A stretch of DNA of 34,181 bases from Akkermansiaceae bacterium (GTDB lineage: Bacteria; Verrucomicrobiota; Verrucomicrobiia; Verrucomicrobiales; Akkermansiaceae), in contig JANYFB010000280.1 of NCBI GenBank assembly GCA_025362955.1, positions 1 through 34,181 of the forward strand. The letters are read 5' to 3'. Below, one piece after another: positions 3 to 31,946 of the stretch. Under the pieces are notes generated by a model that was given only the letters and a program-made list of their open reading frames with translations, was not told the origin of the DNA and ran no database searches. Position 1 is the stretch's first letter. Every line of letters starts with the position of its first letter. Position numbers and translations under genes: made by a program.

Positions 3-1880
3 TCAACCACGATTTCCGCAGGAACCCTGAAGATGGGCTCTGGAACAGCACTTCCAGCCAATACACTGGCCAGCGGCGCGAACCTGGTCATCAACACTGG
101 AGGCACGCTGGACCTCAGTGCCAACAGTATCGCGCTCGGCGTAGTTCCGACCGGCACTGGGGGCACGATCACCAACGGCTCCGCCACGAACAGCACCGCG
201 ACATTGACTTTCAACGGTGGCGGCACCCTGGCTCAAACGCTCACCGACAGCAACTCCACCTCGGCGGGAACCGGCAAGCTAGCGCTTTCCATCACGGGTG
301 GAGCGCTGACGATTAATACCACCAATACCTACACCGGAGGCACCTCGATCACCGGTGGCACGGTTACGGCAAACGGATCAAACCCTTTCGGCGCGAATGC
401 CTCGACGGCCACCGTTTCCGTCACCAGTCCCGGCACCTTGATTCTCGCATCACCCGGCAACTTTACCTACTCCAACACCTTCAGCGGCAGCGGCCTGCTA
501 AAGGTTACGTCCCCGAACGCCGGCAGCGATACTATCGTCAACAATTTCGGCGTCTTCAGCGGGACCCTCGAAGTTGCGACATCGGGTAACAACAAGTTGC
601 AGATCAATTCCAGCATTCCCACGAATCTTTCCAGCGCTACTTTGCTGATTGATAATGGGAGTCAGTATTTCACCGGAGGCAACGTGAACTTCGGCACCAT
701 CAACTTACAGGGAATCGGCAACGGTGAAAATCGCGGCGCCATCCGCCTCAATGGCAACGGTACCACGACTGGCGTTCTCGGGGGAAATCTTTCCCTCCAA
801 GGCAACACCACCATCGGCAGCGAAGGCGGCACGCTCACGGGCAGCATCTCCACCGGAGTGGCTGGGACGAGCACTCTGACCATGGGAACGAGCAATAGCA
901 GCGGCGCGGCCCTTCTTAGTGGTGCCCTCTCCAACGGCACCGGCACTCTCGCTCTGACGCAGTTCAACGGCACTACCACTCTTTCCAGTACCAACACCTA
1001 CACCGGCGTGACGACAATCACTGCCGGTACGCTCAAAGCAGGCTCTACCGGAGCATTCAGTGCCAACTCGGCGGTCACCTTGGCGAATACATCAAGCGCG
1101 ATCCTGGACACCACAGGCTTCAACACTTCCGTCGGTTCCCTGAGTGGTGGCGGGGCCAGCGGCGGTAACGTCACACTCGGCTCGGCCACTTTGACATCCG
1201 GCAGCGATGGCAGCAGCACATCCTACGCAGGAGTAATTTCCGGCACCAATGGAGCGTTTACGAAAACCGGCGGCGGCACCCAAACTCTAACCGGCACCAG
1301 CTCCTACACCGGTGCAACTACCATCAATGGGGGCAGGTTGCTGGTAAATGGGAATATCTCTACCAGTTTGCTAACAACCGTTGCCTCCGCCGGGACGCTC
1401 GGAGGGTCCGGCACCGTTGGCGCGGTGACTGTCTTGTCCGGAGGAACGATCGCTCCCGGCAATAGTCCTGGCATTCTTTCCACGGGTAGCGCAACGCTTG
1501 ATGTCGGCTCCTCCTTGGGCATCGAAATCAATGGAACCACCGTTGGCACCACTTATGACCAGCTCAATGTCACCGGTTTGGTTTCTCTAGCAGGAGCAAT
1601 TTCTGTTAGCACAGGCTACACTCCGACCAATAGCACCTTGTTTTTCATTATTGCCAATGACAGCACCGATGCGATCACCGGTACTTTCAGCAATGCTACA
1701 ATCAACGGTGCAACCTACACCCTCGGCGGGCAGGATTTCCAAATCAGTTATTTCGGAGACTCCACCGGCAACACTTTTACCGGCGGTAACGATGTCGTGC
1801 TGATGGCTGTCCCCGAACCCTCAGCTGCCGCATTGCTAGGAGCTGTGGGTGTCATTCTGCTGCTCCGCCGACGCCGCTGA
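3..1880 (+). CDS. Autotransporter-type beta-strand repeat protein with PEP-CTERM tail (5' partial)
   Basis: The frame is open to the left edge of the window; the ORF-track ATG at 33 is internal, because TISAGTL-like repeat sequence precedes it. The protein is Gly/Thr/Ser/Asn-rich and carries several autotransporter-associated beta-strand repeats of the form GTLTLTGTNTYTGGTTINGGTL, for example NTYTGGTSITGGTV and SSYTGATTINGGRL. These are expected to stack into a beta-helix passenger. The last 23 residues are a textbook PEP-CTERM sorting signal: VPEP, a hydrophobic helix, then RRRR. In this family the tail is processed by an exosortase; none is encoded in the window. I infer a secreted, surface-retained protein. 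Residues 121-440 (counted from the ATG at 33) are closely related to the C-terminal part of the next gene. The N-terminus and signal peptide lie outside the window. Confidence 0.9.
   Translation, partial: STTISAGTLKMGSGTALPANTLASGANLVINTGGTLDLSANSIALGVVPTGTGGTITNGSATNSTATLTFNGGGTLAQTLTDSNSTSAGTGKLALSITGGALTINTTNTYTGGTSITGGTVTANGSNPFGANASTATVSVTSPGTLILASPGNFTYSNTFSGSGLLKVTSPNAGSDTIVNNFGVFSGTLEVATSGNNKLQINSSIPTNLSSATLLIDNGSQYFTGGNVNFGTINLQGIGNGENRGAIRLNGNGTTTGVLGGNLSLQGNTTIGSEGGTLTGSISTGVAGTSTLTMGTSNSSGAALLSGALSNGTGTLALTQFNGTTTLSSTNTYTGVTTITAGTLKAGSTGAFSANSAVTLANTSSAILDTTGFNTSVGSLSGGGASGGNVTLGSATLTSGSDGSSTSYAGVISGTNGAFTKTGGGTQTLTGTSSYTGATTINGGRLLVNGNISTSLLTTVASAGTLGGSGTVGAVTVLSGGTIAPGNSPGILSTGSATLDVGSSLGIEINGTTVGTTYDQLNVTGLVSLAGAISVSTGYTPTNSTLFFIIANDSTDAITGTFSNATINGATYTLGGQDFQISYFGDSTGNTFTGGNDVVLMAVPEPSAAALLGAVGVILLLRRRR
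393..1352 (+). repeat. Duplicated 320-residue module, copy A
   Basis: This part of the first gene aligns throughout with 7366-8314 in the second gene. Shared runs include ENRGAIRLN, QYFTG, TIGSEGG, AGSTGAFS and SAVTLANT, in the same order with only short indels. Similarity is visible at DNA level too (for example accggagcattcag in both). It is too long and too ordered to be just the generic repeat, so a segmental duplication or recombination between neighbouring genes is the simplest reading. Confidence 0.85.
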
Positions 1881-1953
1881 TTTCCTTTCGATACTTTATT
1901 TTTTCATCTCTAAAATCTGCTCCATCTTTTCCATTACTAAACCATTTAAACCC

Positions 1954-4900
1954 ATGAAACTACATTCGTCTCACCGCGCTTTCCTCATCCTCGCTGGCTC
2001 CGCTACCGCATTCATTTTCACTCATTCGGCGCGGGCCGCGAATGCTGCTTGGTCCACCACTCCCGGTAGCATGTATTTCACCGGTAACAACTGGACGACC
2101 GGCGCCACTACCCCTGGAGCTCCTACCGGCACGATTGCTTCCGGCGATGGTCTCTATTTCGGCACCTCCAGCCTCACCACCCTTTATAACAACGAGACGG
2201 TCGGTTTTGCTGTAGGTGGCGGTGGCACCCCGGGATTTGTGTTCAATTCCGGCGCGGCAGCTTTCATCATCAATGGCAATTCGCTGGTTCTAAATGGCGA
2301 CATCACAAACAGCAGCACCAATCTTCAAACGATCAACACCCCGTTGACTTCTGGTTTCGCCCGCAATTTCACCACGTCAGCGGGTGGCGGCGATCTTACG
2401 TTTGGCGGTTCCCTCACGGCGACCGGCGGAGCAATCGCAAAAGCAGGGGCGGGTACGCTGACTCTCGGCGGCCCGACCAATACCTCGAACCAAGCGTTCA
2501 ATGTAAACGCCGGGACTTTGGATATCGGCGCCTATGGCATTACACTTTCCAACGGAACTCTTCTTCAAACAACCGGTAGCGGCACCGTTAATGCGACCGG
2601 GGGTGGGACGATCAAGCTAAATGTTGCCTTTGGTGACCTCGGGGTCTCAAGCGGCAGTGGAACGCTGACCATCAATGCGGTCATTGCCAATGGCTCGACA
2701 AACGGTATCGACCTCTATGGTGGAAGTGCGACGGGGACGGTCGTCTTGGGTGGGGCGAACACCCAAACCGGCAATAGCAATCTTCAACAAGGCAACCTGC
2801 GCCTTGCCAATAGTTTGGCACTACAGAATAGCACCCTCAACTTCAATGGCTTCGCAGCGAGTGGCACCAGCCTTACATTTGACTCATCCGTCGCCTCCAA
2901 CACATTTCTGTTAGGAGGACTCACGGCCAACGTATCTGGAGGAGCCTCCCGCGATTTCGCCCTGCAGAATACGGCTGCGGCACCCATTTCGCTAATTGTC
3001 GGTAATAACAACTCGGCCCAGACCTATGGCGGCATCATGAGCGGCGCGGGCAGCCTCACAAAAGTAGGGACAAACACACAGACACTAACAGGGGCCAATG
3101 CCTATACCGGCGGTACCGTTGTGACCTTGGGATTTCTGACCCTCGACTTCAACGCCGCTACGATTGCATCCAACATTCTCTACAATGGTGTAACGGCCGC
3201 CGGATTGACCTTGGGTGGAGCTTCTTCGGGAATGAACGGGGTTCCCGGCCAAGGTTTCCCGGGAGTAGCGACGCAAGCCAAAGCCAACACCGCTACCGTC
3301 CAGACTTTTGGTGGACTTACCTTAAATCCGAGTATGGATATCCTCACTGCCCGGGGAATCGGCACGGGTAACATGACGGTCACCCTCGGTGCCATCACGC
3401 ACAACCCAGGCGGGAGTATCAATTTCAGCCGTCTTAATGATGTGGTTGTCAGCACTGGTGCGGGCATCTTCGCTACCACCACTACTAACGGTGCAAGTGG
3501 TATCTTGGGAGCTTGGGCGGTGACAAATCCTGCCACAAGCCAAACCACCAATTTCGTAAATCCAACCGACTACGCAGCGGTCTCAGGGGGAAATATCGTA
3601 GCTTATACAGGCTACAACGTCGTGACAGGTGGAAGCACCCTTGCAAGTGTGGCGGCCAACAACAACCGCGTCACGGCGTCGGGAACCATCGCGCTGGCTG
3701 CAGCAGGCGTGGTCACCACGGACCTCAACACCCTCAGCCTCGCATCCACTGCCACGGGTGCGACTACCGTCACCATCGGCGCTTCCGGCACCCTCCGACT
3801 GGGTGCGAATGGCGGCATGTTCGACTCCAGTGGCGGCGGCAATATCACGGTCAGTGGCGGAACCCTAACCGCAGGTGGGACTCCCGATACAGCGGGTGAA
3901 ATCAACCTGATCGGCGGTGGTCCCAGCAATCCATTTACTTTAAATTCTGTCATCGCCAATAACGGCACGGGGGCTGTGGCTCTCTCGATCACCAGTTATG
4001 GAAATGGGAACATCACCATCGGGGGGACTAACACCTACACCGGCGGCACCTTCCTCAACAGCGGTCGCACGCAGGCAAATAGCAGCGCTGCGTTCGGCAC
4101 CGGGGCCGTCACAATCATGCCCTATGCACAGGCTTACTTGAATTCCTCAACCTTTGCCAATGACTTCAATATTTCCGGCAATGGCACGGGGAATACCGAC
4201 ACGCCCTCAGCCATTCGTTTTCAAGGACCCAACACAATCACCGGAAAAGTCACTTTGCTAAGTGATGCAGTGATCGGGATTCGCGGCGGTACGGGCAACT
4301 TCATCACCGGTAAAATCACCGGCAATTACAACTTGACCATCGGCGAGGGCACCGGCTTCGGCGACATCACCATCTCCAATACGGCCAACGACTTCGGTGG
4401 CAGGCTCAACATTAATAACGAGGCGGTGATTCTCGGAGCATCAGGAGTCATTCCCGATGCCAGCACCGTCAATTTCTCTAACGCGGCCTCAAAGCTGATC
4501 TTGAACGGGTTCAACGAAACCATCGGCGGGATACTCAACACCGGCGGCAACACCTCCGCGCTCTTCGAGGCTTCGGAAAGCGGCAGCAGCAAAGTCTCGG
4601 TCCTGACGGACAATCAGACGTTTAGCAGCACGTTCAACGGAATCCTCCGCAACTCCGCTAGTGGCTCGGGCAACCTCCTTTCGCTGGTCAAAACCGGTGC
4701 TGGGACTCTAACCCTGACCAACGCTGCGAATTTAAGCGGTTACACCGGCGGAACGACCATCAATGGGGGCGCGATTCAGTTAGGCGTAAGCAGCGGCGCC
4801 ACTTTCAGCGCCATCGGTTCCACTACTGGCGCATTGACCGTAAACACGGGCGGCACCTTGGACATGAATGGCTTCAATCAGACAGTCGGACCCCTGACTG

Positions 4901-7900
4901 GCACCGGCGGTCTTATTACTAGTAGCGCCGTCGGCACCCTGACTCTTACGACCGGGGATGTGACTAACACGACCTTCGCTGGTGCAATCCGGGATGGAAA
5001 CGCAACTTCGATCTCGCTGGTCAAACAAGGTGCCGGAACCCTCACACTCACCGGAATCAATACCTACTCAGGAACGACAACGGTCAATGTGGGCGCGCTT
5101 CAGATCGGAACGGGCGGCAGTATTGTCCCCGCCGCGGCGGTCACTCTATCAGGCACTGGAACCCTCATCGTTGGGGACGCGACAGGTCCCGTCGCGCAGA
5201 CTTTTAATAACCTTACTTCTGTCTCCGGATCGTCAATCGTCGGCGGTGCGGCCACTGCTTCGACACTAACCCTGAACGGAGCCGGTACTGTTACCTATCC
5301 AGCCTCCTTCGGCGGCGCGGGAACGAATCAGAACAATCTGAACCTGATCATCGCTGGCACGGCGTCGCCTGTTAGTATTCTTGGCGGCACCAGTACTTAT
5401 ACGGGAACGACCACGATCAACAGCGGCAGCAACCTGGCGCTCACGGGTAAATTGGGAACCACGGCCACCACCATCAATTCCGGCGGGACATTTTCCGGCT
5501 TCGGCAATGGCACCACCACAGGGGTCATCGGCGGAAATCTGACCGGCTCGGGCGGCGCTACCATTTCCCTTACAAACACCTCAGGCAGTCTAACGGCAGG
5601 CAACATCGCCCTTGGCAATGGCTCGGCCTATGGCGCAGGTAACTATTCGACTTTGACCTTCACCCTCGCAGCCGGAAATTTGGTGGAATCCTTGAACACG
5701 CCAGGCACGCTCAACATAAATAGTGGCGGTGCCTTCGTGAACGTGACCAACCCGGCGCAGAACGGCACCTTCGTTCTCGCCAATTACACCGGCGGACTTA
5801 CCGGCTCTGGTGGCTTCTCCCTCAGCAGCACGACTCCCAACGTCCTCACCCAAAACTCCGGGCGGAACGTCGAAACACTCACCGTAGGTTCTAACACGCT
5901 GACCCTCGTCATCAGCGGTGCGGGTGCTCCCGGAGTAGCCTACTTCAACGGCGGTGCTACGGTCGGAAGCAGGACCATTTGGAACAATCTTTCTGACCCG
6001 AGTTTCGTCAATTTCTCGACCGATCTAGCAGGATTGAATGACGGGGGAAATACAGTTGGCGCACTCAGCGATGTGATTCTCAATGCAAACAACGCCACGA
6101 CCAACGTAGGCAGTGCTTCGATCACCGAAACGCTCGGTGCCAGCACGATTATCAACAGCCTGCGGGTGAATGGTAACGGAACCACCACCATCGGTGCGGA
6201 TGGATCGATTCTTACAATCAATGCGTTGGGCGATGCCAATACCGATACCGGCGGCGGCTTCACCGGCAACCCCGCCGGTGTGGGTATCGTCATCGCCAGC
6301 AGTGCGAATGCCTTCACGGTGAACGTTCCTGTGGAATTGGGTAACGATCAATCCTGGACAAACAACTCCGGGAACTTGTTCACCAAATCAGGCACAGTGT
6401 CCGGGAAAGCCTTGGTTGCCTCTACCCTTGCCCTCAGCAACTCGAATTCCGGGGGCACCACCCTCCCAGGCATAATCGGAAACGGAGCGGGCGGCACGCT
6501 TGCTTTGGCCGTCAACAACACTGGCTCCGGGGTGACGACTCTAGGGGCAACGAATTCCTATAGTGGTGGTACCACTCTGAACGGCGGGACCTTAACCGCA
6601 ACCGTCAGCGGTGGTTTCGGCCTTGGAAACGTCACCGTTAATCCGACCAACACGACTGCCTCCGCAGCAGACGACAGCACCTTGAACACCAACGGAAGCA
6701 TCGCATCCACAGCCGCACTCACAGTAAATAGCGAAACGGGCGACGGCGGGTTCGGAATTGGCACAGTTAATTTCAACGGCGCTACCCCAGTGATCGGCAG
6801 TCTCTCTGGAAATGGTTTCGTCGTCCTCGATAATGCGGGCGGTACGGCATTCACCGTCGGCAGCACGAACAACCTTTCTTCAACATTCTCCGGTGTCATC
6901 TCAAACGGCCTGGGAACCGGCACCCTCATCAAGGCGGGCACGGGAACCCTGCTGCTCTCCGGGACTAACACCTTCACCGGCGGCACGATCCTGAACGCGG
7001 GAATCCTCCAAATCGGCAATGCAGGCGCCTTCGGCACCACCAGCCGGGCACTGGCATTCGGTGTGAATAGCACGGGCAAACTCCAACTGAACGGCACCAG
7101 CCTCTCCCTAACCGACCTCACCACCAACGCTACCGTCGGCACTCCCATCATCGAAAGCGGTTCGGCTTCTGCGGGAACTGATACACTAACCGTGACCACA
7201 GCCAGCACCGATGCCTATGCGGGCGTGCTGCAAAACGGTGGAACCCGTTTGCTTGGATTAACGAAGAGCGGTACGGGCACACTTACCTTAAGCGGAACCA
7301 ATACATTCAGCGGCAACATCGCGGTGACAGGTGGGACACTGGCAGTTGGCAACGTCGCCACTATTGGCGCCAATGTTTCAACCACTTCGGTAAATATCAC
7401 TAGCCCCGGCATCCTGGCAATCACTTCCACTGCCAACCAAACTTATGCAGACACGTTTACCGGAAATGGCAAAATTCTCTGCACTTTGAATACGGGAGGT
7501 TCGGACACGATTTTCACTAACTTCAATGCATTTACTGGCACTCTGGAGTTATCTGGACCCGGCGGAAACTCTAACAAGTTGCAAATCACGGGGAATATCA
7601 CCTCGAATCTTTCCACCGCTCAGTTGCAAGTGAATAACAATGCTCAGTATTTCACCGGCACAGGCACGGTGAACTTCGGTAACATCAGTATCATCGGCAA
7701 CGGCAACAACGAGAACCGCGGTGCCATCCGACTGAATACAGGTACGCTTGGCGGTAATATTTCGCTTGCTGGCAACTCTACAATCGGCAGCGAGGGTGGG
7801 GTGCTGACCGGCAACATCAGCAGCGGCATCGCCGGCAACAACACCCTCACGATGGGAACCGGCAATAGCACTGGCACAGCACTATTGAGTGGAAATGTCA

Positions 7901-9069
7901 GCAATGGCACCGGCACGCTTGCAATTACCCAAGCGAATGGAACCACCACCCTATCCGGCGCGAACAGCTACAGCGGTGCAACAACGATTAACTTCGGGGT
8001 CTTCAAGGCCGGTTCCACCGGAGCATTCAGCCCCGCCTCCGCAGTCACCTTGGCGAATACGAATGGCGCGACGCTCAATACCACCGGTTTCAACACCACC
8101 ATCGGCTCACTTGCTGGCGGTGGTGCCACCGGCGGGAACGTGGTCCTCGGCGCGGCCACCCTCACCACCGGTGCCATCGGCTCCACGACTTCATACGCCG
8201 GGGTGATTTCCGGCAGCGGAGGCGGACTCACGAAAACCGGAGCAGGCACCCAGACCCTCTCCGCCATCAATACCTACACCGGCGCAACTACCGTCAATGC
8301 CGGTATTTTAAAACTCGGCGCGGCAGGCTCCATCGCTGCCAGCTCGGGTGTTAGCTTGGCAACGGGAGCTGTGCTTGATACCACCGCACAATCATTCTCC
8401 ATGGCAGGCGGACAACCGTTCACCATTCACCTGGATGGCACAGGCGCTGGCTCCAGTGGGAAAATTTTGGCAGCAGGTCTTAACATCTCGAGTGGAGTCG
8501 TGAACCTCACCATCGACAACCCCCTCAACGACTCCGCCTATGTGATCGCCGATTACACCGGCACCGTTACCACAACCTTCGGCACGATCACTGGCATTCC
8601 CACCGGCTACACGATCAACTATGCTTACAACAGTGGCACTCAGATCGCAATCGTCCAATCTGGATATGACTCTTGGGCTTTAAGTTATGGACTTACCGGA
8701 GCGGATGCCCTCCCTAGCGCAGATCCAGATAACGATGGAATTAAAAATCTGTTGGAATATGTCCTCAGCGGTAATCCTACAGTTTCCTCTCAATCTATCC
8801 TACCTACCCAAGATAGTTCAGGTGCCAACCTCGTGTTCACCTTCACCCGCAGCGATGCTTCGGAAACGGACACCACCCAAATCTTCCAATATGGCACCGA
8901 TCTAACCGGATGGACGAATGTGTCTATCGGTGCCGCCAGTACTGGACCGGATGGAAATGGCGTCACCGTCGATATCGTTGAAAACCTCCTCGCCCCGGAC
9001 ACCGTCACCGTCACCGTTCCCAAGGGAGCCCACACGGTACTCTTCGGTCGCTTGGACGTGACCAAATAA
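1954..9069 (+). CDS. Giant secreted autotransporter-type beta-strand repeat protein, no PEP-CTERM
   Basis: The product is 2371 residues. The ATG at 1954 is preferred over the ORF-track start at 1849 because it gives a clean signal peptide (MKLHSSHRAF, a hydrophobic stretch, then ARA-A cleavage) and avoids overlap with the previous gene. About a dozen autotransporter-associated beta-strand repeats are visible, such as GTLTLTGINTYSGTTTVNVG and GTLLLSGTNTFTGGTILNAG, predicting a long beta-helix. No beta-barrel translocator is visible at the end, so classical type V secretion is unlikely. The last 140 residues form a separate domain starting near YDSWALSYGL and containing DPDNDGIKNLLEYVL, a calcium-loop-like motif common at the ends of verrucomicrobial exported proteins. 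No VPEP...RRR tail is present, unlike both neighbours. It is separated by 73 bp of AT-rich DNA from the gene upstream. Function is inferred as a surface or extracellular matrix protein; the ligand is unknown. Confidence 0.9.
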   Translation: MKLHSSHRAFLILAGSATAFIFTHSARAANAAWSTTPGSMYFTGNNWTTGATTPGAPTGTIASGDGLYFGTSSLTTLYNNETVGFAVGGGGTPGFVFNSGAAAFIINGNSLVLNGDITNSSTNLQTINTPLTSGFARNFTTSAGGGDLTFGGSLTATGGAIAKAGAGTLTLGGPTNTSNQAFNVNAGTLDIGAYGITLSNGTLLQTTGSGTVNATGGGTIKLNVAFGDLGVSSGSGTLTINAVIANGSTNGIDLYGGSATGTVVLGGANTQTGNSNLQQGNLRLANSLALQNSTLNFNGFAASGTSLTFDSSVASNTFLLGGLTANVSGGASRDFALQNTAAAPISLIVGNNNSAQTYGGIMSGAGSLTKVGTNTQTLTGANAYTGGTVVTLGFLTLDFNAATIASNILYNGVTAAGLTLGGASSGMNGVPGQGFPGVATQAKANTATVQTFGGLTLNPSMDILTARGIGTGNMTVTLGAITHNPGGSINFSRLNDVVVSTGAGIFATTTTNGASGILGAWAVTNPATSQTTNFVNPTDYAAVSGGNIVAYTGYNVVTGGSTLASVAANNNRVTASGTIALAAAGVVTTDLNTLSLASTATGATTVTIGASGTLRLGANGGMFDSSGGGNITVSGGTLTAGGTPDTAGEINLIGGGPSNPFTLNSVIANNGTGAVALSITSYGNGNITIGGTNTYTGGTFLNSGRTQANSSAAFGTGAVTIMPYAQAYLNSSTFANDFNISGNGTGNTDTPSAIRFQGPNTITGKVTLLSDAVIGIRGGTGNFITGKITGNYNLTIGEGTGFGDITISNTANDFGGRLNINNEAVILGASGVIPDASTVNFSNAASKLILNGFNETIGGILNTGGNTSALFEASESGSSKVSVLTDNQTFSSTFNGILRNSASGSGNLLSLVKTGAGTLTLTNAANLSGYTGGTTINGGAIQLGVSSGATFSAIGSTTGALTVNTGGTLDMNGFNQTVGPLTGTGGLITSSAVGTLTLTTGDVTNTTFAGAIRDGNATSISLVKQGAGTLTLTGINTYSGTTTVNVGALQIGTGGSIVPAAAVTLSGTGTLIVGDATGPVAQTFNNLTSVSGSSIVGGAATASTLTLNGAGTVTYPASFGGAGTNQNNLNLIIAGTASPVSILGGTSTYTGTTTINSGSNLALTGKLGTTATTINSGGTFSGFGNGTTTGVIGGNLTGSGGATISLTNTSGSLTAGNIALGNGSAYGAGNYSTLTFTLAAGNLVESLNTPGTLNINSGGAFVNVTNPAQNGTFVLANYTGGLTGSGGFSLSSTTPNVLTQNSGRNVETLTVGSNTLTLVISGAGAPGVAYFNGGATVGSRTIWNNLSDPSFVNFSTDLAGLNDGGNTVGALSDVILNANNATTNVGSASITETLGASTIINSLRVNGNGTTTIGADGSILTINALGDANTDTGGGFTGNPAGVGIVIASSANAFTVNVPVELGNDQSWTNNSGNLFTKSGTVSGKALVASTLALSNSNSGGTTLPGIIGNGAGGTLALAVNNTGSGVTTLGATNSYSGGTTLNGGTLTATVSGGFGLGNVTVNPTNTTASAADDSTLNTNGSIASTAALTVNSETGDGGFGIGTVNFNGATPVIGSLSGNGFVVLDNAGGTAFTVGSTNNLSSTFSGVISNGLGTGTLIKAGTGTLLLSGTNTFTGGTILNAGILQIGNAGAFGTTSRALAFGVNSTGKLQLNGTSLSLTDLTTNATVGTPIIESGSASAGTDTLTVTTASTDAYAGVLQNGGTRLLGLTKSGTGTLTLSGTNTFSGNIAVTGGTLAVGNVATIGANVSTTSVNITSPGILAITSTANQTYADTFTGNGKILCTLNTGGSDTIFTNFNAFTGTLELSGPGGNSNKLQITGNITSNLSTAQLQVNNNAQYFTGTGTVNFGNISIIGNGNNENRGAIRLNTGTLGGNISLAGNSTIGSEGGVLTGNISSGIAGNNTLTMGTGNSTGTALLSGNVSNGTGTLAITQANGTTTLSGANSYSGATTINFGVFKAGSTGAFSPASAVTLANTNGATLNTTGFNTTIGSLAGGGATGGNVVLGAATLTTGAIGSTTSYAGVISGSGGGLTKTGAGTQTLSAINTYTGATTVNAGILKLGAAGSIAASSGVSLATGAVLDTTAQSFSMAGGQPFTIHLDGTGAGSSGKILAAGLNISSGVVNLTIDNPLNDSAYVIADYTGTVTTTFGTITGIPTGYTINYAYNSGTQIAIVQSGYDSWALSYGLTGADALPSADPDNDGIKNLLEYVLSGNPTVSSQSILPTQDSSGANLVFTFTRSDASETDTTQIFQYGTDLTGWTNVSIGAASTGPDGNGVTVDIVENLLAPDTVTVTVPKGAHTVLFGRLDVTK
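7366..8314 (+). repeat. Duplicated 320-residue module, copy B
   Basis: This is the counterpart of copy A at 393-1352. After this block the two proteins diverge completely. Copy A continues into a PEP-CTERM end, while copy B continues into the DPDNDGIKNLLEYVL-type C-terminal domain. Confidence 0.85.
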
Positions 9070-19663: not shown

Positions 19664-19792
19664 CAGGATCACATCATTAACTCCGCCGGAAGGGGAATGT
19701 TTCTGAAAAATTCAGTTTCCCTCCACTGCCGCGGGATTGGGTAATTGAGCTTGGCCCACGGGGCGTTACAGCCTATTCCCCGCCGCTCTTCC

Positions 19793-20926
19793 GTGTCCTT
19801 TACTGTTCTTTCCACCGATTCATCGACTTCCGCCCGGCGCGGGCGCTTGGTTTTGCCGCATGGCGTGGTTGAAACTCCGATTTTCATGCCTGTCGGCACC
19901 CAAGGTACGGTGAAAACCCTGCATCCCGCCGAATTAGAACTCCTCGGTGCCCAGATCATCTTGGGAAATACCTATCACCTCTGGCTGCGGCCGGGTCATG
20001 AACTGATCCGCAATCTAGGCGGCCTCCACGGTTTCAGCACATGGCAAAGGCCCATGCTCACGGATTCCGGAGGTTTTCAGGTGTGGTCCTTGGCAAAATT
20101 GCGCAAAATCACCGAAGAAGGAGTGCGTTTCCAAAACCACCTGGACGGCTCGAAAATGCTACTTACTCCCGAACGGAGTATGGAAATCCAAGGCGCGCTC
20201 GGCTCGGACATCGCGATGCTCTTCGACGAATGCCCGCCCTTTCCTTGCGACGAGGCTTACGCCGCAAAATCTCTCGCCCTCACCAGCCGCTGGGCCATGC
20301 GTTGCAAGGATTGGGTTGTGAAAAACGAGCCGCAGTCCGGTGCGGGACGACAGCAACATTTCGGCATTGTCCAAGGCTCCATTTTCGCCGATCTACGGGA
20401 ACAATCAGCTCGCGAGTTGGTTGAACTGGACTTCGACGGCTATGCAATTGGGGGCGTGTCCGTAGGCGAACCGGAGCATGAAATGTTTCGCGCCATCGAC
20501 AATGCGGTGCCCTTCCTCCCGCAAGACAAACCTCGATACGCCATGGGCCTGGGCACTCCGCCTCAGATCTTGGAAATGATTGCCCGTGGCGTGGACATGT
20601 TCGACTGTGTCATGCCCACGCGGATTGCCCGTCACGGGATGGCCATGACACTCGACGGGCCGATCAACATCAAGAATCTGATCCACGCAAAAGATCCGCG
20701 GCCGATTTGCGAGAGCGCCCATCCGCACGTCGCCGGATTTTCGAGGGCTTATTTGCGCCACCTTTTCCGGGCGGGCGAAATCCTCGGTTTGCGGTTGCTT
20801 TCCTTCCACAATCTGCATTTCTACCTCTCCCTCGTCGCCGGGGCAAGAGATGCCATCGCTGCGGGGAACTTCCCCACCTATCAAGATTCCTTCGTCCGAC
20901 GCTACACTCGATTAGATTCCTTATGA
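19793..20926 (+). CDS. tgt: Queuine tRNA-ribosyltransferase (tRNA-guanine transglycosylase)
   Basis: The product is 377 residues from a GTG at 19793 (V-S-F-T-V-L-S-T-D), which matches the usual start of the family; the track start is a TTG 16 codons earlier. The enzyme swaps guanine 34 of GUN-anticodon tRNAs for a queuosine precursor. Present are VVETPIFMPVGTQGTVK, the active-site DSGGFQVWSL (Asp about 91), DECPP, and the nucleophile Asp in DMFDCVMPTR (about 271). The zinc site is unusual. The standard CxCxxC before YSRAYLHHL is missing, and the sequence is CESAHPHVAGFSRAYLRHL, while the distal His (FHNLHFY) is kept. The gene leads the conserved tgt-yajC-secDF order and overlaps yajC by ATGA. 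Confidence 0.95.
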   Translation: MSFTVLSTDSSTSARRGRLVLPHGVVETPIFMPVGTQGTVKTLHPAELELLGAQIILGNTYHLWLRPGHELIRNLGGLHGFSTWQRPMLTDSGGFQVWSLAKLRKITEEGVRFQNHLDGSKMLLTPERSMEIQGALGSDIAMLFDECPPFPCDEAYAAKSLALTSRWAMRCKDWVVKNEPQSGAGRQQHFGIVQGSIFADLREQSARELVELDFDGYAIGGVSVGEPEHEMFRAIDNAVPFLPQDKPRYAMGLGTPPQILEMIARGVDMFDCVMPTRIARHGMAMTLDGPINIKNLIHAKDPRPICESAHPHVAGFSRAYLRHLFRAGEILGLRLLSFHNLHFYLSLVAGARDAIAAGNFPTYQDSFVRRYTRLDSL

Positions 20927-30042: not shown

Positions 30043-30155
30043 TTTCCGAAGGACGGCAGTTTTTAAACTGGGCTTGGCTGTTTCCCCAAGAAATGACCGG
30101 GAAAATTCTGGTTTCTTCACTGGCAAGGTGCCGGGTTCCCTGTTGTTTTTCCGCC

Positions 30156-31946
30156 ATGTTCGCCGTCACGAATATCTCGACCTACCGCTTCGCCGAACTC
30201 ACCGGCTTGAAGGACTTGCGGGAGGATCTTATCACCGCATGTCGGGCGTGGGATCTCAAGGGGACAATCCTTCTCAGCACGGAAGGCATCAACTTATTTG
30301 TGGCGGGAGCGGCGGAGTCGATAGAGTTGCTGTTGGAAAAACTCAGGAAAATTCCCGGCCTTGAAGATCTGGAGCCGAAGGTCAGCGTCAGCGAGAAGCA
30401 ACCTTTCAACCGGATGTTAGTAAGGGTAAAAAAGGAAATCATTGCTTTCGGCATGGAGAGTATCCGCCCAGCCAATTATACCTCGCCTAAAATCGCAGCG
30501 TCCGAGCTGAAACGATGGCTGGATGAAGGCAAGTCGATCACCTTGCTCGATACCCGCAATGATTACGAAGTGCAGCTCGGCACTTTCAAAGGCGCGCTCA
30601 TTCCTCATATCAACACGTTCCGTGAATTTCCAGACGCGATTCGAAAATTTCCGGAATCACTCAAGAGTCAGCCGGTCGTGATGTTCTGCACTGGTGGTAT
30701 CCGATGTGAAAAAGCCGGACCGTTCATGGAACAGGAAGGTTTCAGCAATATCTATCAACTCGACGGCGGCATCCTCAAATATTTCGAGGAATGCGGAGGC
30801 GATCATTACGAAGGTGAATGCTTCGTCTTCGACCAGCGCGTGGGCGTGGACCCCGGGCTGCGCGAGACGGATTATGCAATCTGCTTCGCCTGCCAAGCAC
30901 CGTTGGATGCTGCCGATCAAGAAGACCCCCGGCATGTGGAAGGCGTGAGTTGTCCGCATTGTTTCGTCAGTGCGCCGGAACGCATGAGCCAGCGGATTGC
31001 TGAACTGCATCTCGCAATTTTTAAAGTTACTCATCCCTTGCCAGGTTCAGTCGCTTTGGAAAACCGCCGTCCCATCAATGTCCCCGCCTCGCAGGATGGA
31101 AAAACTTTGTTAGAAGCATTGATTGCCATTTTTCCACAGATTCCGCCCACGGAATGGGAGGCGAGATGTGATGCGGGCCGCTTCGAGAATTACGGCGGAA
31201 CTGTTAGATGGAAAAATCATCGGGTGCGCGGTGGCGAGCGGGTAAATCAGGTTTTTGCGCCCGCCGTCGAGCCGCCGGTATCAGCGGACATTCGCGTGGT
31301 GTATGAAGACGAAGCGGTCCTCGTGATTCACAAACCCGCGCCGCTGCCGATGCACGCAAGTGGGCGATTTCATCGCAACACGCTGCAAGCCATTCTGAAT
31401 CAGGTGTATGCTCCCAAGTATCCCAGACCTGTGCATCGTCTTGACGCAAATACTACCGGCCTCGTGGTGTTCGCGCGCACCCGCCATTTCTGCCGTGTGC
31501 TCCAGCGTCAGTTTCTCGGAGGGACGGTGGAAAAGCGATATCTTGTGCGAGTGCTGGGACAACCCGAGCAAGATACATTTTTCTCCGACGCTCCGATTTC
31601 CGCCGAACCGGATGTGATGGGGATGCGGCTTATAGACCCGCTTGATGGACTGCCCTCGCGAACGGATTTTCATGTGTTAGAGCGTTGCTCCGATGGAACT
31701 ACTCTGCTAGAGGCCAAGCTGGCAACTGGCAGGACCAATCAAATCCGTGCCCATCTTTGGCAACTTGGTCATCCAGTTGCAGGAGATCCTACTTATCTTC
31801 CGTTTCACCAAATCGGCGAAACGCAGACGCTCGATCCCGACTCCCCACCACTCCAACTTCATGCATGGAAACTTTCGTTTTCCCATCCTTTAAGCGGGGC
31901 AGTGATGGCGTTCGAAACCGAGCGTCCGAAATGGTCCGGAGTGTGA
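30156..31946 (+). CDS. Fusion of tRNA uridine hydroxylase TrhO and RluA-type pseudouridine synthase
   Basis: The product is 596 residues from the ATG at 30156. Residues 1-285 are a full TrhO (YceA): an N-terminal acylphosphatase-like part (GTILLSTEGINLFVAG), a rhodanese domain with LDTRNDYEVQLGTFKGA and the active loop CTGGIRCEKA (Cys about 178), and a Cys-rich part (ECFVFDQRVG, ICFAC, CPHCF). TrhO makes 5-hydroxyuridine at tRNA position 34. Residues 315-370 look S4-like. Residues 380-590 are an RluA-family pseudouridine synthase, with catalytic Asp in PVHRLDANTTGLVVFAR (about 430) and the RTNQIRAHLWQLGHPVAGDPTY motif. TrhO alone is normally about 350 residues. The frame is continuous with no frameshift sign. 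The RNA target of the second half cannot be told from sequence. Confidence 0.92.
   Translation: MFAVTNISTYRFAELTGLKDLREDLITACRAWDLKGTILLSTEGINLFVAGAAESIELLLEKLRKIPGLEDLEPKVSVSEKQPFNRMLVRVKKEIIAFGMESIRPANYTSPKIAASELKRWLDEGKSITLLDTRNDYEVQLGTFKGALIPHINTFREFPDAIRKFPESLKSQPVVMFCTGGIRCEKAGPFMEQEGFSNIYQLDGGILKYFEECGGDHYEGECFVFDQRVGVDPGLRETDYAICFACQAPLDAADQEDPRHVEGVSCPHCFVSAPERMSQRIAELHLAIFKVTHPLPGSVALENRRPINVPASQDGKTLLEALIAIFPQIPPTEWEARCDAGRFENYGGTVRWKNHRVRGGERVNQVFAPAVEPPVSADIRVVYEDEAVLVIHKPAPLPMHASGRFHRNTLQAILNQVYAPKYPRPVHRLDANTTGLVVFARTRHFCRVLQRQFLGGTVEKRYLVRVLGQPEQDTFFSDAPISAEPDVMGMRLIDPLDGLPSRTDFHVLERCSDGTTLLEAKLATGRTNQIRAHLWQLGHPVAGDPTYLPFHQIGETQTLDPDSPPLQLHAWKLSFSHPLSGAVMAFETERPKWSGV

Follow-up and report, generated by a model that had tools for sequence, protein, structure and literature searches.

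The wobble-hydroxylation enzyme TrhO (YceA in Escherichia coli, YbfQ in Bacillus subtilis, Lpg2838 in Legionella) and the RluA-family pseudouridine synthases (RluA, RluC, RluD and TruC) are the closest described relatives of the two halves of the protein analyzed here. Sakai et al. (2019, PMC6599085) reported fusions of TrhO with TrmR in the eukaryotes Phytophthora and Phaeodactylum. The present protein resembles these in that TrhO is joined to another RNA-modifying enzyme, but TrmR acts on the TrhO product at the same base, which a pseudouridine synthase cannot plausibly do. Yeast Rib2/Pus8 likewise combines an RluA-type synthase with an enzyme of a different function, unlike the present case a riboflavin-pathway deaminase, and shows that substrates are not necessarily coupled in fusions of this kind.

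The window, that is, the entire 34,181-nucleotide draft contig of an Akkermansiaceae bacterium analyzed here, encodes TrhO and an RluA-type synthase in a single chain. The N-terminal half shares with TrhO the UPF0176_N and rhodanese domains, the CTGGIRC loop, a basic residue pair (90/92) and the fold; it differs in carrying a 320-residue synthase extension, in scoring best with the PRK05320 model and in occurring in a genome where CmoA, CmoB and TrmR were not found. The C-terminal half shares the PF00849 core and the HRLD and GRTNQIR motifs with the RluA family, and apparently an S4-like N-terminal domain with RluC and RluD, but forms a separate clade, scores below every equivalog cut-off and is preceded by TrhO. 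The literature searched, which did not include subscription papers or domain-architecture databases, yielded no description of a TrhO-RluA fusion.

Architecture and conservation of the fusion protein

As the first-pass annotation had proposed, a TrhO and an RluA-type synthase, both complete, occupy one 596-residue frame, with the matches to UPF0176_N, Rhodanese and PseudoU_synth_2 each exceeding the Pfam cut-off (Table 1). The open frame (30093..31946, forward strand) contains no stop, and ATG 30156 is the likely start because relatives begin aligning at residue 3.

Table 1. Features of the fusion gene and its product (window coordinates)
Feature	Coordinates	Strand	Residues	Basis or detail
trhO-psuS fusion gene	30156..31946	+	596 aa	ORF and relatives
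UPF0176_N acylphosphatase-like domain	30168..30440	+	5-95	Pfam PF17773, 83 bits
Rhodanese domain	30498..30785	+	115-210	Pfam PF00581, 39 bits
Active-site loop CTGGIRCEKA	30687..30716	+	178-187	
Four-cysteine tail of TrhO half	30882..30962	+	C243, C246, C266, C269	
Linker helix and conserved PLPG	30972..31046	+	helix about 273-292; PLPG 294-297	predicted structure; P296 invariant
S4-like domain	31056..31265	+	about 301-370	TIGR00005 alignment and model-to-RluD alignment
PseudoU_synth_2 catalytic core	31317..31757	+	388-534	Pfam PF00849, 95.5 bits
HRLDANTTG with catalytic Asp430	31434..31460	+	427-435	
GRTNQIR motif	31728..31748	+	525-531	

The S4-like linker noted in the first pass is recovered in outline: the region is spanned by TIGR00005, a model that takes in the N-terminal domain of the RluA subfamily and aligns from residue 313, and by the alignment of the predicted structure with full-length E. 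coli RluD (307 columns), whereas Pfam S4 (PF01479) was not detected in the window protein. In the AlphaFold2 model (mean pLDDT 89), the halves are well modeled, and their relative placement is unreliable because the pTM is 0.57. In Foldseek comparisons, the N-terminal half matched the UPF0176 structure 4f67 with a target-normalized TM-score of 0.81 and TrhO of B. subtilis in complex with tRNA (9j5o) with a score of 0.70. The best fold match of the C-terminal half by this score was RluA (2i82, 0.87), and this half also matched full-length RluD (2ist). Purifying selection acts on both halves: dN is 0.08-0.17 for TrhO and 0.09-0.28 for the synthase, and dS is above 1.5 wherever estimable.

The N-terminal half is recognized by the NCBIfam TrhO equivalog NF001133 (246.9 bits, cut-off 170) and misses the PRK05320 cut-off by 2 bits; in the tree, it groups with the PRK05320 'sulfurtransferase' proteins and is distant from E. 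coli TrhO. The essential residues of the E. coli enzyme, C200, T201, G203 and R205 (Sakai et al. 2019, PMC6599085), align with C178, T179, G181 and R183 of the fusion. In an alignment of 90 distinct fusions plus the query (91 sequences), C178, T179, G180, G181, I182, R183 and C184 are invariant, as are the four tail cysteines. Pfam Rhodanese_C (PF12368) has no match in the window protein and scores below the cut-off in a relative (L026). The basic surface residues K112/R114 of E. coli TrhO align with R90/K92, a conservative swap.

In the synthase half, D430 and R531 are invariant in all 91 sequences and R428 and R526 in 90, with K460 and Y462 varying in single sequences only. TIGR00005 (RluA subfamily) gives 185.8 bits against a cut-off of 192.7, which is passed by two relatives (L040, 204.7; L233, 195). 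The equivalogs of RluA, RluC, RluD and TruC yield 98.7, 91.6, 84.9 and 63.4 bits against cut-offs of 286, 378, 351 and 328, respectively, so that none of these models is decisive, and in the tree the synthase half belongs to a distinct RluA-type clade that contains none of the four E. coli enzymes. One planctomycete fusion (L226 in genome G558, 1453-3330) has HPPD in place of HRLD and EHPHSIR in place of GRTNQIR with an intact TrhO loop, which suggests decay of the synthase half alone.

Distribution, origin and loss

The search for the same two-domain order elsewhere, which the first-pass annotation had called for, recovered the full fusion across Verrucomicrobiota and Planctomycetota. It is present in 24 of 36 genomes of the same genus, four others containing fragments, mostly at contig ends. 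Of the genomes sampled from the two phyla, 18 of 289 from Verrucomicrobiota (completeness at least 90%, window genome counted) and 24 of 294 from Planctomycetota carry it. The relatives from the same genus are 58-83% identical to the window protein end to end, and those from Planctomycetes 50-56%, so that a frameshift, misjoin or chance reading does not account for the frame. Although the window is a draft contig from a genome in 352 contigs, a misassembly or overlooked frameshift joining two genes can be set aside as extremely improbable, given the uninterrupted fusion in cultured strains such as Luteolibacter pohnpeiensis and Haloferula rosea, and in closed chromosomes including that of Limnoglobus roseus.

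A single-pass scan of genome contigs used peptide patterns taken only from the window protein, a design that reaches close relatives only. It found fusions exclusively in Verrucomicrobiota and Planctomycetota records, and proteins with TrhO alone in Opitutae and Oxalobacteraceae. Neither half was found in about 20 genomes of another genus of the same family, presumably Akkermansia. Over the 1.5-5 kb of flanking sequence compared, hardly any genes are common to the fusion loci.

TrhO-like domains also occur in other combinations. In genome G046, which holds the full fusion as well, a further protein (L095, contig C4, 3105-5165, reverse strand) carries at its N terminus a UPF0176_N domain that shares 64% identity with that of the window protein, followed by some 560 residues that have no Pfam match. 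In G352 (L201, contig C4, 736-2334, reverse strand), TrhO and a PAP2-superfamily domain share one frame of 533 residues from stop to stop.

The fusion is old and probably arose from neighboring genes by one early event in this clade. Overlapping neighboring genes are the usual precursor of a fusion, and in G197, from a different class of Verrucomicrobiota, separate trhO and synthase genes lie on one strand, with a 17-base overlap if the first ATG is used. The G197 synthase is sister to all fused synthases (branch support 96); its TrhO is placed, in the TrhO tree, among fusions of Planctomycetes on a long branch, and the pair may be a split of an older fusion. The TrhO halves of all fusions belong to one clade (support 99), which also contains proteins with TrhO alone from Opitutae and other groups, and a single fusion clade was not rejected by AU tests on this half.

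Loss of either half is apparent. Six genomes of the same genus (86-97% complete) have the synthase and no TrhO, and their synthases nest among the fusions (SH-aLRT support 99). Four of the six retain the linker helix, and one (L086) retains a relic of the TrhO tail, SCPHIFKSQARLMAERM, which scores 26 bits, whereas the highest-scoring of 1800 shuffles reached 7.0. Because the AU test does not reject all fused synthases as one clade (p 0.28), the nested position rests on the SH-aLRT support and the relic, and the relic tail is firmer evidence for TrhO loss than the tree. By the tree (support 97), a second lineage (G310 and G313) lost the fused TrhO separately, and Opitutae have TrhO without an orthologous synthase half.

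Another protein appears where the fused TrhO is missing. A U32-family protein of about 450 amino acids (L250-L255) is present in all six synthase-only genomes of the genus and in none of the 24 with the full fusion, and because these six genomes form one clade, the swap counts as few independent events. The lineage-specific proteins retain E162, C170 and C177, residues that TrhP requires and that RlhA-type paralogs share, and score 188-203 bits (164 for one truncated at a contig end), the TrhP cut-off being 534. In the second lineage, G310 encodes a true TrhP (662 bits), as only one other of the 289 Verrucomicrobiota genomes does, and G313 has a separate, distant TrhO. This pattern fits the replacement of one U34 hydroxylase by another, which would support the assignment of the N-terminal half to TrhO.

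Function of the two halves

The fusion is probably a bifunctional RNA-modifying enzyme, a ho5U34 hydroxylase combined with a pseudouridine synthase for a different uridine. The N-terminal half would catalyze O2-dependent hydroxylation of U34 in four-box tRNAs, producing ho5U34, and the C-terminal half, with its S4-like RNA-binding domain, would isomerize another uridine, most likely in a tRNA; we infer both activities, and the tRNA target, from sequence and fold. After a fusion of neighboring trhO and psuS genes, probably a single event early in the clade, the benefit probably consists of co-expression and shared RNA binding rather than dependence of one reaction on the other. Against this interpretation stand the PRK05320 placement of the N-terminal half, the lack of detected CmoB and CmoA, and the scores of the swapped U32-family proteins, well below the TrhP cut-off.

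The first-pass annotation had suggested that the two modifications are coupled, at the same or a neighboring tRNA position. A functional link is indeed suggested by the conservation of the single chain in two phyla and by the overlapping genes of G197. Mutual dependence is not supported, given synthases without the fused TrhO in two lineages and TrhO without the synthase in Opitutae and others, and halves that can be lost argue against a tight link between the two activities. The same-position version fails on chemistry: TrhO hydroxylates C5 of uracil, and in pseudouridine C5 becomes the glycosidic carbon, so that action on the same uridine is implausible because both reactions use this atom.

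An equally possible substrate of the synthase is 23S rRNA. The window genome encodes only two further RluA-type synthases, one RluD-like and the other a 270-aa protein, so that some 23S rRNA and tRNA sites are left without an assigned enzyme, and both the S4-like domain, which occurs in RluC and RluD too, and the dispensability of either half in some lineages are compatible with two unrelated jobs: modification of an RluC- or RluA-like site in 23S rRNA by the synthase and a fusion that is neutral or only co-regulatory. Retention of the fusion across two phyla and the adjacent genes of the split relative G197 speak against this alternative, which is unlikely but deserves to be kept in view.

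A stricter version of the bifunctional interpretation is true coupling within one anticodon loop, whereby the synthase acts near U34, for example at position 32, on the same tRNAs as TrhO, and linkage raises efficiency or sets the order of the reactions. The best fold match of the synthase half is to RluA, a position-32 enzyme, but the half is no RluA equivalog by score; the overlapping pair in G197 and the long persistence of the fusion agree with coupling, but the survival of either half alone does not. Among the recovered U34 four-box tRNAs whose E. coli counterparts are known TrhO/TrhP substrates, U32 is present in Leu-UAG, Pro-UGG and Thr-UGU, and C32 in Ser-UGA and Val-UAC. This gives three of five, compared with 18 of 38 tRNAs overall (Ala-UGC was not recovered in the draft), with no clear enrichment of U32, so that position 32 as the neighboring target receives no special support. 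A two-site editor of this kind, in which one binding event would lead both to U34 hydroxylation and to a pseudouridine elsewhere in the same loop, thus seems doubtful; if real, it would be the first case of wobble hydroxylation and pseudouridylation combined in one enzyme.

Under the bifunctional interpretation, the fate of ho5U34 becomes relevant. No CmoB scored above the cut-off in 59 relatives, CmoA was not found in the window genome, and neither was TrmR, the single PF01596 match adjoining a glycosyltransferase-like gene. It follows that ho5U would be left bare, and bare ho5U34 may be the end product, with the reservation that this genome is only 90% complete.

Another position-34 enzyme, queuine tRNA-ribosyltransferase (TGT), is encoded in the window at 19745-20926 (forward strand), beside secDF and about 9 kb upstream of the fusion; this proximity is probably a coincidence. 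The window further encodes two large proteins with passenger-associated-transport repeats (PATR), of 2406 aa (1849-9069) and 615 aa (33-1880), both on the forward strand.

To our knowledge, neither TrhO nor an RluA-type synthase of this clade has been studied in Verrucomicrobiota or Planctomycetota. The fusion connects an uncharacterized RluA-type clade with TrhO in both phyla, and genomes with TrhO and no detectable CmoAB or TrmR raise the question of bare ho5U34 as a final product. Relatives with fused genes, overlapping neighbors, TrhO only or the synthase only, with fused and synthase-only forms within one genus, are natural controls, so that the role of the linkage and the target of the synthase are directly testable by comparative RNA mass spectrometry.
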